Shown: positions 25,191-33,350 of the stretch, one piece after another
Numbering within the stretch: the first letter of the stretch is position 1
Layout of the letters: each line of letters starts with the position of its first letter
Source of the DNA: Argopecten irradians
Taxonomy: Eukaryota > Mollusca > Bivalvia > Pectinida > Pectinidae
DNA: 64,000 bases
Assembly (NCBI RefSeq): GCF_041381155.1
Contig: NC_091138.1
Span: 32,543,604 to 32,607,603, forward strand
Direction: 5' to 3'
Made by a program: the position numbers and the translations under genes
The notes under the pieces: model-generated
What the model was told of the DNA's origin: nothing
Databases searched by the model: none
The model's input: the letters and a program-made list of their open reading frames with translations, nothing else

Positions 25191-26690
25191 GATTGTGGGC
25201 TAAAAACCGCTAGTACAAACTATTATGATATTATGATCAATAATTGCTTCTTTCAAACAATACTATTATTTCTAAGAAACTTTCATTTTTGTTTTGGAAG
25301 GAGGTGTGCTTTTAAAGTGAATAGTTTTGAAACAAGGAATTATATAATACTTTCTTATTTCATCAAGAGCCGTTTGAGAACAGCAAACCTCGCCTTTAGC
25401 AACATTTAAAGACCAAAAAGCTTCATCATGCGAGTAAACTTTGGCCCATTGGGCCTCTTGAAATCCTCAAAATCCTATGTTTTATCATTAAAATTATTGC
25501 CTTTAGCCATAACAACATATTATGTAATCATAAGACCTATATAAAAGCAGAAATCAATTTAAGTTGTGGAGACAATGTAAAGTACAAATTAGAAATTAGC
25601 CCCTTGGGCATTTTGAAATTCTTTCATCCTTAATTTTTTTGTCTAAACCACAAACAAGACATATAATCCAATAATATCTATGCAAAAATCCGTGTCAATA
25701 ACAGCTTTTCCAAAATTCTCAAAATCCAGCATTTTTATTTTTTTTTTTTATTTTTTTTTTTATATTTGAAGATTGTTGATATTATTACAGCGCTTAAGTC
25801 CTATGTTAATGTAGAAATCAATGTCAGTTGTTATGGACAACAGTATTTCAACACTTGCACCAAAATCTTATCCAGGTCATTTCGAACACCAAAGTTGACG
25901 CCCTATTGATTCCATAAGGCACCCTTTCTTCGAGAGGCGAGCTAAAAGTATTGCGAATTGAATCTTGTTTTATAAAAGTAATAATTTAATTAGTTAATAA
26001 TCTGTTAAACGTTTGACCTAAATGCTTCATTTAGGTATAATAGAAGCATTTAGGTCTAATATAAAATATAAAATGTATGCCATAACCCGACTGACCAAGA
26101 CAATTTGGCCAGTCCGTTATGACATTTTTAGGGACATTTTTACCACTACTCTTGGAATTACAATGTATAATGATATTATGAGAAAAAAATATTTTATCTA
26201 CCTAGTTTTCCAAAAAGTCATGGTCCTGCCATGGCAAGCAGACAATATTTAAGGCCTTACCAGTAAAAATCTGCTGTATTGTAAAACGACGTGAATTGCG
26301 CCCACAAAATAATGACGTCACAATGGAGACCTACCTGCAAGAGAGCTAACTGTAATATGCAAAGATTGAATATATAAATTCAGATACAACAATATTTCTG
26401 AGAGACTGAGTTTTAATCAGCATACACATGCACAGAAAACAAACATACTTATCTATATAAGCAATGCATTTCCATATTTTTTTTAATAGTCTAATATATT
26501 TAGAGTTCCATTTCTACCAAATTTTTCACAATGCACAACTTCCAAACCAACGAAATTGTCAGTTTTCGTGTCTTTGTTCAAAGGTATAATTCGTATGTAT
26601 ATTTTAAAAAGTCAGAAATCATAGTTGATAATGAATTTAAGATAAAATGCCATAATGCCTCAGTCGATACTTGGGTATCGCAGACGGAAC
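25191..26690. other. AT-rich intergenic DNA
   Basis: No gene is supported. A fragment near 25440 (GGCCCATTGGGCCTCTTG) resembles, in reverse, the start of the interspersed repeat at 36124. A poly-T tract lies at about 25736-25760. The 3' UTR of the minus-strand lectin-like gene should fall just left of 26692. Confidence 0.5.
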
Positions 26691-26691
26691 G

Positions 26692-28891
26692 TTAATATGA
26701 TTCACATATTACTTTGAATTCGAATACTGAACATTCAATGCTCATTAATTGATAAGCTTGTAGATTAATAAGGGGTATATATGAACAAGATTGGTCAGGA
26801 AGTTGTTCACCCTCTCCAGCGGCAATAAAAGATGGGTCAACATTACTTCCATCAGTAAACTTCCATGTCCCAGAGAAGCCTATAGCGTCAGTATGATATT
26901 CCCCATGCAGGTTGTGTTCATTGATTAAAGCATTACCTTCTTCAATGGTCCTGACGCGGATCAGACGTGCATTTCTCGCTGAGCAATAGGCTATGGCACC
27001 ATTGTGATCAAGTTTGAGATCATCGGGAGCAATGACTACAGTATAATGAGAGCATGTTAACTCCGGGGTTGTCCATTGTCCGTTTCTGTTTGCTTGGCAA
27101 ATTATCGGCTGAACGTTTCCAGTCTTATTGATGGTCGGGTCATCACAGGTGTAGTCAATAACAGTACTGTCTGATTTGAGTGTTGCATTCTCCACTTTTG
27201 GCGGGTCGCCACATGGAGAGCTGAGACACACAACCTTTTTGCTGGACAAAGTGACGCATATACTCCCAGCAGTGGCATTAAAGTCATCTGAACCATCCAA
27301 CATGTCGGATCGTTCTTGATAAAAGACTTCGGTTGTAATACCTACAGCCCCACCTTTAATGGTCCCTCGTCGTAAGTAACAAGTTATGCTATCCTTGTGA
27401 TGAGCAAGAGCTTCGCAATCCCGATATGACAGACACATTTTCTTACACTGTTGAAGTCCAATGGTGGGAGTTATAACGTAATATGTGACGTTAACGGAAG
27501 CAACCCTTTCCTGGTTTGTAACGCTTGAAAATGGACTCCGTTGAAAAATTGACCTCGGGTCAGTTTTCACACAATGTTGAAAAACGGACCCCCGAATGCC
27601 GTTGAAAAATTAAACATGCCGTTGAAAATTGACAGTGTGTAGGGTCAATTCTCAACGTGCGAGGTCTGTTGAAAAATGACCGTTGATAAAATGACCTTGC
27701 GGCAAACTGTCAAACGGATGGTCTGTTGAAAATATGACCCAAGTACATCTGTACATTCACAAATAACTGTTGCACAAACATAATTCTCGAATTCTGTTAT
27801 CGCCATTCCTAATATAAGCGACCCTTCTGTGCTGTGGTATTTAAATTACGTAATCACCTCGATTTGAATTGAAATTTGGTATTGTTATCATCGTAACAAA
27901 TACCTCATTTAAATATTTTAGGTGCTTGTATATTTATTATGGAGAATACGCCACTACAAAATTTTCATTTTTTCTGTAGTCAATTTTTGTTCGTCCGTGT
28001 AGATAATGTTAATTTAATTGTTTCTCAAACTGAGGAATTGCTACATACCACTGAGGTAAACGTAGTAAATAAAAGGAATAGTTGTTATCAAACTGCATGC
28101 AAAGTTTGTACTATGTGGTGTTCACTTTCCGGAGTACCAGTGGATAGTGTTACAAAAACTATAATTATGGATTTTTATGATTATATTTTCGAATGTGTCT
28201 TGTGTTGTGTTGTTTTTGGGTGGTGTTGTATTGTTGTTGCGTGGTTGTGTGTTGTGTTAGGTGTTGTTGTGTGATGTTTTGTTGTTATTTTATGTTGTGT
28301 TGTGAGATGTGTTGAGTTATTGTGGTGTTTTGTGTTGTTGTTGGGTGGTGTTGTGTTGTTGTTGAGTGTTTGTGTGATGTGGATTTGTGTTATGTGTGTG
28401 ATATGCTGTTGTGTGATGTTGTGATGTGTAGTGTTGTTGAGTGTTGTTTGTGTTGTTGTTGTATTGTTGTTGCGTGGTTGTGTGTTGTGGTGTGGTTGTG
28501 TTGTGTGTTGTGTGATGTTTTGTTTATATATTGTGTCGTGTTGTTGTGTAATGTTGTCTTGTGCGTGGTGTGGTTGTGAGTTTGTGTGATGTTGTGTTTT
28601 AGTGTGAGCGTTTTGTTGTGTGATGTTATGTTGTGTGATGTTGTGTAAAAACGAGTTCTTATGGGTGGGTCACTTTTCTTCAACGGGGTCTATTTTCAAA
28701 CAGGGTCGGGTGTAAAAAGTGCGCTAAAAGTTCAGTTTTTTCAACGCTTTCCCGGGGTCATTTTTCAAACGTTGAAAAATGACCCAGAGGTCAGTTTTCA
28801 AGGGGGTCCATTTTCAACGTTACAATCGGCATACCGCTCCCCAGCCACTCAGCTCAACAAGAAGAAATTTGACCAATGCCAGAAGCAACAT
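26692..28891 (-). CDS. Secreted PAN/apple + sushi + C-type-lectin-like protein, two exons
   Basis: Exon 1 is 28891-28835, with ATG at 28891-28889 and a hydrophobic leader MLLLALVKFLLVELSGWGA. Exon 2 is 27510-26692, ending in TAA. The intron 28834-27511 starts GTATGC, ends ACCAG and is phase 0, giving 291 residues. An in-frame stop at 28948-28946 lies upstream of the ATG. After the leader come a PAN-like segment (about 25-88, with QQCKKMC and SITCYL), a sushi/CCP module (119-172, CGDPPKV to GQWTTPELTC) and a C-type-lectin-like domain (about 177-291). No EPN or QPD sugar-binding motif is obvious, so the ligand is unknown. Such proteins are often extracellular recognition or matrix proteins in molluscs. 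An alternative ATG at 27570 lies in transposon sequence and would lack a leader. The intron content is unusual (see findings). Confidence 0.8.
27516..28825. mobile_element. TIR DNA transposon, non-autonomous, filling intron 1
   Basis: The ends are inverted copies: the left begins TTGTAACGCTTGAAAATGG and the right, reversed, begins TTGTAACGTTGAAAATGG. Similarity continues for over 60 bases at roughly 85% by eye. Both subterminal zones carry many copies of a GTTGAAAAATGACC-like motif, probably transposase-binding repeats. The interior has no transposase and includes a T/G-rich low-complexity block. No target-site duplication is visible. The superfamily is not assigned. Confidence 0.8.
28190..28655 (+). 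repeat. T/G-rich low-complexity block
   Basis: A purine-poor stretch of irregular TGTTGTG, TGATGT and GTTGTTG repeats, about 460 bp, inside the TIR transposon. Long open frames on both strands here reflect composition only. Confidence 0.85.
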
Positions 28892-30135
28892 TGTTCTCCG
28901 ATGAGTATAGTGATGATAGATACAGCAACAAATTGTGTCCTCTCGCTATAAAAGGTATCAGATGTCACGCTTTGAGGAAAAAACACTATTTATCCCTGTC
29001 TATAAAACTTCATTCCTCGTCCCTTTAAAATTATTTTCACTTTGTCCTTAGAAAAAAAAGTATATTTGCGTCCTGGAGTATTCAAATTTTCCATTTTTTA
29101 AGCTAGAAAAGCCTCAGGAATTGCACACATCTAGACCATCGATGCTAATGTTACAGACCTCCTCTCAGTTTTTGTTGATACTTACTTCAAAAATAATAGA
29201 AAACTAAATAGTATGTATTGAATATATTATGCATGTTCGTTATATATATACCTGTATTGAGATCAAAGTTATATGATTTGTGATTGGACAGTCAATTTCA
29301 TTCATCTGTTTCCTTGCCCTCCATTGGCTAATTAAATCTTGACACATGATGTTCATATTACTATAATCATCAATCTTTGAGTCTATTGTTGTTTGTTAAT
29401 CATTGTTTGAACCACTTGTATTATTTATGAATTCATTATAACCCTTCTGAAAAACTCAAAAGTCTATCAGAGTCAATATCTGAGTGATAACGGAAAATGT
29501 CAATGATGCCATTTTCAGTTAATTTTGGTAACAATACTTTACCTTTAAAAGTTCACGCTTGTCATGTTTTATATAGGAGCGATATGCAACCTCGCACAAA
29601 ATAATCATTAAACGATGGTTATGTCTTTCCGATATGCCATTTTGGTGCTAAACTATTGTTTCGTGTCAATGTAAATAGAAGCCGAAACTGTCGCACAATG
29701 ACAATTAGTATTACATATTAAAACACATCAGGGATCGAACTTTGGGTATACATACATTACAATTTGATGATAATTCATTTTAATCATGTCACATAGCCAT
29801 GCCTTATTTCTTAAACAAAGCTGTGTGTTTTTGTGTAAGTATCTATCTACGACAAACAAACAACAAACAATGCTGTCTTTACATAAATCAATCATTGTTA
29901 GGTATAGATAGCAAATGACATCAGTGATAAGCATTGTTTCTCAATACTGTACACGTGAAACGACAACATAATTGTTATTCGACTCAACATGCAACCTGGA
30001 GCTAAAAACAACATGGATTTTTATTTGATCTTATTTAAGTCATATAAACACGCCTTTTAATGACGACCTTCACTGTATCCTATTATTATATGTGTGTTAT
30101 AGGTGCATTGTGCATTTTGTGACACTTTGCTGTAT
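28892..30135. other. Upstream region of the lectin-like gene; no other gene seen
   Basis: This should hold the 5' UTR and promoter of the minus-strand lectin-like gene next to 28892. The remainder is AT-rich sequence without recognised repeats or exons. Confidence 0.45.
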
Positions 30136-30139
30136 TATA

Positions 30140-30250
30140 TACGTGTGGTAAAAGAAGAAAAACTACATGACTAGACCAGGAATTCACCAGAGGCCCTCCG
30201 AACTCTAGTCTGAGTGCTCTACCTATGGCGCTACCAATGGTCGCTGGCAA
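30140..30250 (-). mobile_element. tRNA-derived SINE head (partial)
   Basis: Read on the minus strand, 30236-30214 gives TGGTAGCGCCATAGGTAGAG. This resembles a tRNA D-arm and pol III A box (TAGCTCAGTTGGTAGAGC type). It is followed about 35 bases later by GGTGAATTCCTGG, a decayed B box (GGTTCGAATCC type), and then a T-rich tail. It does not fold into a full tRNA, so a SINE is more likely than a tRNA gene. Confidence 0.5.
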
Positions 30251-30527: not shown

Positions 30528-33350
30528 ATGGATTCTAACTTGAAACTGGATAGATTGACTAAGATTAAATGGCCATTAAAAGTGCCTTTGCCAGGGTGGC
30601 CAGGTCTTATGCAACTGGTTCAATCAGGACCGCACCCTGGAAAGTCATCATTAACGTTCTTGCCAATGGTCGACTTTACTCCAAGTGGTCTGTTTTGCAT
30701 TTTTTTTCAACATTGTGATTTGTATGCGAACAACCTACACCAATCGTCACGTTCAATCAGCACTTCTATTCGAAGGCATTTACTGCCATTTCGAATGACG
30801 AACCGCAAACCAACCTGAAATTCATTGTCCTTCGATTAGGGGGATTTCACCTAGAAATGAGCGTTCTTGAGAAGCTATTGGACATCTCATCTTTGGATCG
30901 GGCCTACACCAATTCCTAGAAACAATTTATCCATCCAATGCAGTTTCCCATAGAGCACTGCGAAGCTACATGCTAATTGATGTCGCTCTCCATGCTCTTC
31001 TTGTGTCCAAGGTGTTTGGAATAAAGCTTCGAAACGATGTAGCTGAGAACATGGGCACAGAAGACGATCTTTACGTTGAAGAAATGCCGACATCTTCCGA
31101 TCATATACATATATATCAAATGTTTATCTCAGGTTGGAGACTTGTATGATCAGCCCGTTTCGGTTGATATAATTATCAAAACAGTTCGGTTTTCACTAAA
31201 GCACTTGGTTTGTTTGCTGATAAACTACAAATGCGCACAGCAAAACTTTTGGTTCAGTATTCTGAAATGATACAGATGCTTCTATTTTTCATAAAAGCGT
31301 AGAGAACATGCGATTGGGAAACTAATTTGAAATGTTTATGTGAGATGGTACCATATTTCGCAGCTGCAAGACACAATGTCTACACAGAAATCGAACATCT
31401 AGATATCTATCGGCAGTTTCGCTCATGGTATCACGTCTTTCCACGATCGTTTGTGGGTGGGTTTGTCTTGCAATTTAGTCATCGAGCAGGAACTAATGAG
31501 AAGTGTAAAGACATCCGGAGGACTAACCAGAGGTCGTGGAATGGGCGATAGCCATTATACTCGATGCAAGCATGTGCGAACATGAATAATTCTATACAAG
31601 TTTTGACCGGCGTTGGCTTTCAAAGAAGCGACCTACACAAAGAAGGATCTGCTGCAAGGAAAGAACGAGATTATAGGGATATCACAAACGTTATGGGATT
31701 GTTTGCAGGACTGAAATCCCTTTTCCGGCTCTGTGTCCTTGAAACACTGAAACAGGCGAGATTGCGCAGTTTAAGTCAAGACCGTGCGAATGAGGTGGTT
31801 GAACGTATCCTGACATCAATGGAAGAAAAGAAGGTTTTAGAATTCTCATTTAAAATTGCTCCACCGCTGAAAAATGGTTATTTTTCTCTATCAAAAACTG
31901 GAGTAGACGATTCAGAAATTTTCTTGTGTAACAAAAGTTTCTTACTTTACACCATTACCACCACTGAAAAGTTTGAGCTTCTTATTTTACTTCAAGATAA
32001 AAATATCAAAAATAATTAATTGCATCCCGAAAAAAAACTTTGACACTATGTCCTATAAGGAATGCAGTACTGATTGCGCATGCACCGAAAGCAAAATAGA
32101 TTATTTTAAATTACTTTTTGTGTTAATTAGACATATATATATACACGATTAAACACCAATTATTGCTCAAATGATGGGTATCATTTATTCTCTGTCGGCG
32201 GTGGAGCATCTTTAAGCGATCCAATCAAGTACAAAGGAGATAAATCGAGTGCCAAGGTAAATGGAGAAAGTGTCCTTATATACCGTGTTGAAATTCCTGT
32301 ATGATGTCTACTTTATGTAATCATAAATGTTTTGTATGTAAATGCCCCGTGCGGGACCTTGATTGGTTTAATCAACATTGTCTGTTGTCAATACCCTCAA
32401 CTCCTTTATCAACACCTGACGATTGCCGCTGCCTTACTTATGGACAACATCCAGCAGTTTGTTTTAAAGTATGAACTTTGTAGCTACCCTTCATCATTAT
32501 TTGAAGCATTAGGTCTTCGTAGGAAAGCACGACAAGCACCGCTAGCTGATCATATTTGGAACATGGGGCAATTTGGGGTTGAAAAACTTACAAGATAGCG
32601 TGCTAGCTGTATAACACGGCGGATCTCTTTAGCAGATAATGCCCTGGAATATAAAAGCATTTGCCATAAGTACGTGCGGCATGTTACGAAGAAATACTTA
32701 GATTGTGGAGTGGTCTTCGATGGTTATCTAATGAATTGTCAACAAAAGATGTTACCCATGCCAGATGTACATGTGGAATCAGATCACCAAAAGTACACTA
32801 CTGAGAGGAAAATGCCCTGCTAGATGAAAAAATGAAAAAATCTTGTCTAATACAGACAACAAGCAGAGGTTCATAGAGCTCTTGTGATCTAAACTACAAC
32901 AAAGTGGTTGCACCATCGTTCGTTTATTTGAAATGAGATGCTAACCTCCTCATCACGCAGATGGCTGTAAATTGCGCGGCAATCAAAGATGTCGTGATGG
33001 TTGGGAGAAGACATTGATCCCCTTGTTCTGCTTTGTTATCATGCTGGTCATCAGGATAACGCACTCTTTTCTTCATGTCTGATTGCTAAGATATCTCTTG
33101 AGAAAAAAATACAGATATGGGAAATCTGCAAAACCAAAGCCGTTCCTGGAGGCCAGTGCGTCTTTTTATTGTATCCATTATGTGGATGTAACACGATGTC
33201 TAGACCATTTGGAATTGGTAAAGCATTCAACATTTAAGAAGGTACTATCATCTGATGCCCTCCAAAACCATTCTCGTGTCTTCGTTGACAGAATTTCTTA
33301 TATAGATGCAGTTGTGATAGCTGTCGAGGAAATTTTTACGGCATGGTAAG
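30528..33350 (+). pseudogene. Decayed repeat-associated coding element
   Basis: Broken plus-strand coding similarity runs over about 2.8 kb in shifting frames. Recognisable pieces are LRLGGFHLEMS (about 30830-30860), LVIEQELMRSVKTSGGLTRG (about 31475-31535), LVLLCYHAGHQDNALF (about 33020-33070) and LYPLCGCNTMSRPFGIGKA (about 33170-33230). From memory these motifs recur in this order in a large multi-copy protein of unknown function in molluscs and other invertebrates, where it behaves like a mobile-element protein. Its class is not known to me. The copy is clearly dead, with many breaks, and a MITE has inserted into it. No open reading frame here should be called a gene. Confidence 0.6.
31849..32215. 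mobile_element. MITE with TTTAA target, copy 1
   Basis: TTTAA at 31849-31853 and at 32211-32215 flank a 357-bp element. Its ends are inverted repeats: TGCTCCACCGCTGA at the left and, read in reverse from the right, GATGCTCCACCGCCGACAG. The interior matches the copies at 49.85 and 50.39 kb. It is inserted in the decayed coding element. Confidence 0.85.

Follow-up and report, generated by a model that had tools for sequence, protein, structure and literature searches.

A non-autonomous transposon of Ginger1 type lies within the coding exon of a PAN/lectin-like gene of Argopecten irradians; it belongs to a large family, is absent from the corresponding site in related genes and carries an abnormal excess of inserted bases. 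The locus sits in a window of 64,000 nucleotides on contig C5 of the 846 Mb genome (G000), in which an initial annotation had proposed that the element created a spliceosomal intron. Our analysis leans towards a recent exon-breaking insertion over a new intron, and we judge it moderately probable that this insertion was recorded with local sequence errors. In the order of the gene, the features are:

28835..28891, minus strand: 5' part of the coding exon, ATG plus 18 further codons, signal-peptide-like.
28829..28834, minus strand: proposed donor GTATGC, absent from all three close paralogues.
28826..28829, minus strand: CCGA, a degraded copy of the target site towards the 5' end of the gene, as matched against the paralogue and family sites.
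27517..28824, plus strand: non-autonomous Ginger1-like element with terminal inverted repeats (TIRs), 1308 nt, TGTAACG...CGTTACA, oriented after family copy L003.
27511..27514, minus strand: CCAG, the copy of the target site towards the 3' end of the gene, containing the AG proposed as acceptor.
26692..27510, minus strand: 3' part of the coding exon, 272 codons plus stop, PAN/C-type-lectin-like, open throughout.

The initial annotation had recognized a TIR transposon at 27516-28825 (1310 nt). The element is real, with ends at 27517 and 28824 as set by alignment to other copies, one base inside the earlier limits on each side. The predicted intron of 1324 nt is, as had been described, nearly all element, with 16 nt of flank rather than 14; base 28825 is flank between the CCGA copy and the element, and bases 27515-27516 (AA, minus strand) lie between the CCAG copy and the element. 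Within the 3' part, which had been described as a PAN/sushi/lectin exon, Pfam matched PAN_1, PAN_2 and Lectin_C, every match below the curated cut-off, and gave no match to a sushi domain in the 272-codon frame.

A genome-wide search for further copies, as the initial annotation had suggested, uncovered a large family: the TIR pattern TGTAACGTTGAAAATGGACCCC occurs 540 times with at most one mismatch (275 + 265), and a reversed control of the pattern has no genome occurrence. The TIR arms in the window measure 45 nt (78%) and 38 nt (74%), and the window's left end aligns to the right ends of other copies over about 92 bp at about 80%. Inside the element is a GT-rich degenerate array (window 28196-28646), and other family copies have similar low-complexity interiors in the open reading frame (ORF) listing. 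Three copies on three contigs (L002, L003 and L004, at C5:28841899, C13:31206762 and C6:43454674) match at a listed identity of 100% along 647 nt, so that activity of the family was very recent.

The accessible text of Bao, Kapitonov and Jurka (2010, PMC2836005) gives Ginger1 elements TGTNR ends, TIRs of 40-270 bp and 4-bp target-site duplications (TSDs), CCGG in 75% with CCGT and ACGG as minor sites; non-autonomous copies are known. The window family resembles them in its TIRs, which fall within that range, in the non-autonomous window copy, in its TGTNR termini (TGTAACG...CGTTACA in the window copy and in others) and in its mostly CCGG 4-bp TSDs. The 53 distinct flanks comprise CCGG (41), CCGT (3), CCAG (3), CAGG (2) and one each of TCGG, CCTG, ACGG and CCCC, and 9 of 12 two-ended flank pairs have identical four bases. 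It differs from Ginger1 in its minor CCAG and CAGG sites and its long GT-rich interior; the TSD of the window copy is degraded. Autonomous Ginger1 elements carry a transposase with a Gypsy-like integrase; the assignment here is made from termini, TSDs and TIRs.

A missing TSD had been named as a weak point of the proposed intron. A degraded trace does exist, CCGA (28829-28826) paired with CCAG (27514-27511) on the minus strand, and we take the duplication to be degraded rather than missing because this pair matches both the uninterrupted site of the three paralogues (ATGCCAGAAA or ATACCAGAAA, elsewhere given as GGGATGCCAGAAA or GGGATACCAGAAA) and the family's CCGG-type target. CCAG is a minor target of that family (3 of 53 flanks). 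The AG of the proposed acceptor is the target site's own.

Relatives of the gene preserve the site without the element. A search with the 272-aa protein returned 44 genome matches, the closest paralogues being at C10:34907265 (79% amino-acid identity), C9:25878453 and C6:21314008. In all three, the signal peptide and the next domain form one open stretch across the site, and all three align gap-free to the window's 57-nt 5' part. The C10 paralogue is intact, open over its full 290 codons; those on C9 (L040) and C6 (L041) are decayed, with stops or frameshifts further on. By BLAST, window positions 26650-27510 and 28840-30223 are collinear with C10, with 6 bases between them there and 1329 in the window. 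Among distant relatives, inspected by eye, a Met and a run of hydrophobic residues share the open frame in 23 of 25, the exceptions being L036 and L038. Many of the distant relatives lie on C13 at about 18.8-24.5 Mb, in a large gene family with uninterrupted exons.

These comparisons bear on an alternative raised in the initial annotation, that an older ordinary intron shrank around the element and that the paralogues are retrocopies or intron losses. The imperfect TSD of the assembled copy is in keeping with such a history. Upstream, the window and C10 have about 1.4 kb of non-coding sequence in common, and shorter stretches are shared with C9 and C6; the paralogues are therefore DNA-level duplicates, and we rejected the idea of intronless retrocopies. 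Of the distant relatives, 23 of 25 are likewise uninterrupted at the site, and the target site is the paralogues' own uninterrupted CCAG. Within one genome we reject the older intron, which we consider very improbable. An interruption is lacking in all three of the close paralogues and in 23 of the 25 distant relatives; the uninterrupted exon is therefore, on sequence comparison, the ancestral state within the single genome examined.

The window copy stands apart in its insertions. In a pairwise BLASTN alignment with L003 over 647 nt, it shows 17 mismatches and 24 gap openings; the gaps add 32 bases and remove 3. Counted from majority sequences of the two ends, the window copy has 22 insertions to 1 deletion, and the ends of other copies together have 12 insertions to 30 deletions (14 left and 34 right, from 37 loci, some giving both; Fisher P = 8e-8, indicative only since the copies are related). 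Eleven of the 22 insertions lengthen the adjoining base or unit. The net gain is 29 bases, compared with -21 to +12 in the 40 best-scoring listed copies (query included, one 32-base row dropped; the list favours query-like copies). A different repeat at 31842-32216 differs by -3 to +10 bases from 39 other copies, with a median of 2. That repeat is very abundant (4952 first-look candidates, 40 scored), and fragments occur close to the C10, C9 and C6 paralogues as well.

The insertion bias extends into the flanks: exon bases beside the element, those of the sole good donor among them, are insertion-rich relative to all three paralogues (paralogue GTGCTGGGATGCCAGAAA, window GTGGCTGGGGAGCGGTATGCCGAT//AAACCAGGAAA), and the last bases of the 5' part (about 28835-28846) are unlike all three. 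No frameshift separates the 819-nt 3' part from C10. Away from gaps, substitutions are more frequent in the window copy (22/485 left, 15/122 right) than in other copies (205/8281 left, 141/5332 right); transition:transversion counts gave no discrimination. The tract resembles locally uncorrected long-read sequence, and its bias looks more like sequencing or assembly error than evolution. We set aside dating of the insertion by divergence as untrustworthy, a multiple alignment giving 33 substitutions and a terminal branch of 0.053 and BLASTN giving 17 substitutions and 24 gaps.

The phase-0 join of the initial annotation, GCG/GTATGC to ACCAG/GAA (slashes mark predicted exon boundaries), is indeed in frame, and it gives exactly the paralogues' 19-codon length. 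Splice sites were scored with site frequencies of human introns. Among 5593 GTs on the minus strand of the window the donor, at 1.28 bits, stands at the 93rd percentile, and among 3755 AGs on that strand the acceptor stands at the 63rd. A rival AG at 27447, 63 nt downstream in the same phase, ranks above it at the 75th percentile. An in-phase GT..AG pair is by itself weak evidence. A second in-frame pair, with donor ATT/GTAACG within the TIR and acceptor GAAAG/GG, scored lower at both sites and was discarded. The best donor in a reconstructed junction (paralogue exon, CCAG and family TIR) scored no higher than -2.66 bits, and the family's own TIR ends yield weak donors only.

To a new spliceosomal intron we give a substantial chance, though one clearly short of even. 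Its acceptor would derive from the CCAG target copy, its body mostly from the element and its donor GTATGC from later changes in the exon flank; selection would have kept frame and length, and the differences of the element would be real and mark its age. The restored 19-codon length and the high-ranking donor speak for such an intron; the acceptor context is weak, with a better-scoring in-phase AG downstream, and the 22:1 insertion:deletion bias is absent from other copies. Much turns on whether the copy-specific bases are real. If they are, many indels in the element beside an adjoining exon free of frame-shifting ones would imply selection on a spliced product, hence splicing. If they are errors, the predicted intron would have no donor, because its GT rests on those very bases; since many spurious inserted bases are probable, we do not trust the apparent donor or the exact in-frame join.

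The proposal that the element created the intron thus holds in its premise, as relatives near and distant point to no interruption before the element arrived, and is not supported in its conclusion: the donor depends on copy-unique bases in the insertion-rich tract. The full claim, of a Ginger1-type transposon that gave a secreted-lectin gene a working intron, with a CCAG acceptor, a mutated-flank donor and the ancestral exon readable in three paralogues, is in our view less likely than not.

Coding constraint fits both outcomes. Relative to C10, the 3' part has dN 0.128 and dS 0.296, and nonsynonymous:synonymous changes on the C5 lineage number 27:12 (outgroup C9) or 17:20 (outgroup C6), random mutation giving 3.3:1. 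On these grounds, selection constrained the gene during at least some of its history, which is compatible with splicing of the insertion as well as with its recent arrival. An open and constrained 3' part can be counted in favour of a new intron, but the constraint may be older than the insertion.

In the explanation that we favour, a CCAG just downstream of the signal peptide was the target of a non-autonomous Ginger1-type transposon, within the single coding exon of one member of a secreted PAN/lectin-like gene family. As assembled, the start codon and signal peptide are cut off from the remaining protein, and this gene copy would be unable to make its secreted product if the element is not taken out by cryptic splicing. 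The insertion is probably recent, and many of the extra bases in the element and right beside it are probably spurious; we infer the sequencing or assembly error, the recency and the loss of product. Exon breakage is favoured by the uninterrupted relatives, the 22:1 bias and its extension into the flanks, the donor-poor reconstructed junction and the recent activity of the family. Counting against it are the frameshift-free 3' part, the restored 19-codon length, a match that errors would reach by chance alone, and the higher substitution rate away from gaps, as real age would give.

A family of specialized introners, repeatedly making introns in this genome, would accord with the high copy number, recent activity and short TSD of the elements. 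The usual CCGG site supplies no AG, however, and the TIR donors are weak; nor was a second host exon evident in the ORFs beside the element at 41 loci (some of these loci holding the same element; the ORFs were listed and inspected visually, with no domain search). Because the usual site lacks an AG and these loci hold no other evident host exon, we consider an intron-making family very unlikely.

It is rare to find an intron arising while the exon as it stood before the insertion can still be read in the same genome, and the three paralogues provide that state. Should the intron fail, the locus would be a warning: badly corrected repeat sequence can mimic an intron made by a transposon. Some exonic transposons, such as Tc1 in C. 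elegans, are removed by cryptic splicing. The present case resembles Tc1 in its exonic insertion and in the possible use of a nearby cryptic GT and AG; it differs in being known from genomic sequence, the Tc1 cases resting on cDNA.

Introners that draw a splice site from the target site or neighbouring exon, usually with unchanged mRNA length, are described in the accessible text of Gozashti et al. (2022, PMC9860276), as are family medians of 30-654 nt and, among animals and land plants, occurrence in only two groups. The window element is similarly a non-autonomous TIR element inserted in a previously uninterrupted coding exon, with a candidate splice site from the target site or exon flank, as in one mode described there. 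It differs in being a single candidate insertion with predicted splicing, not a family that makes introns again and again, as the word introner implies, and at 1.3 kb is longer than those medians. In the accessible part of that text, 'Ginger' appears once, within the title of a cited paper; our literature search found no Ginger-derived intron, and absence there is no proof that none exists. If the prediction is true, a Ginger1-derived intron would add a source.
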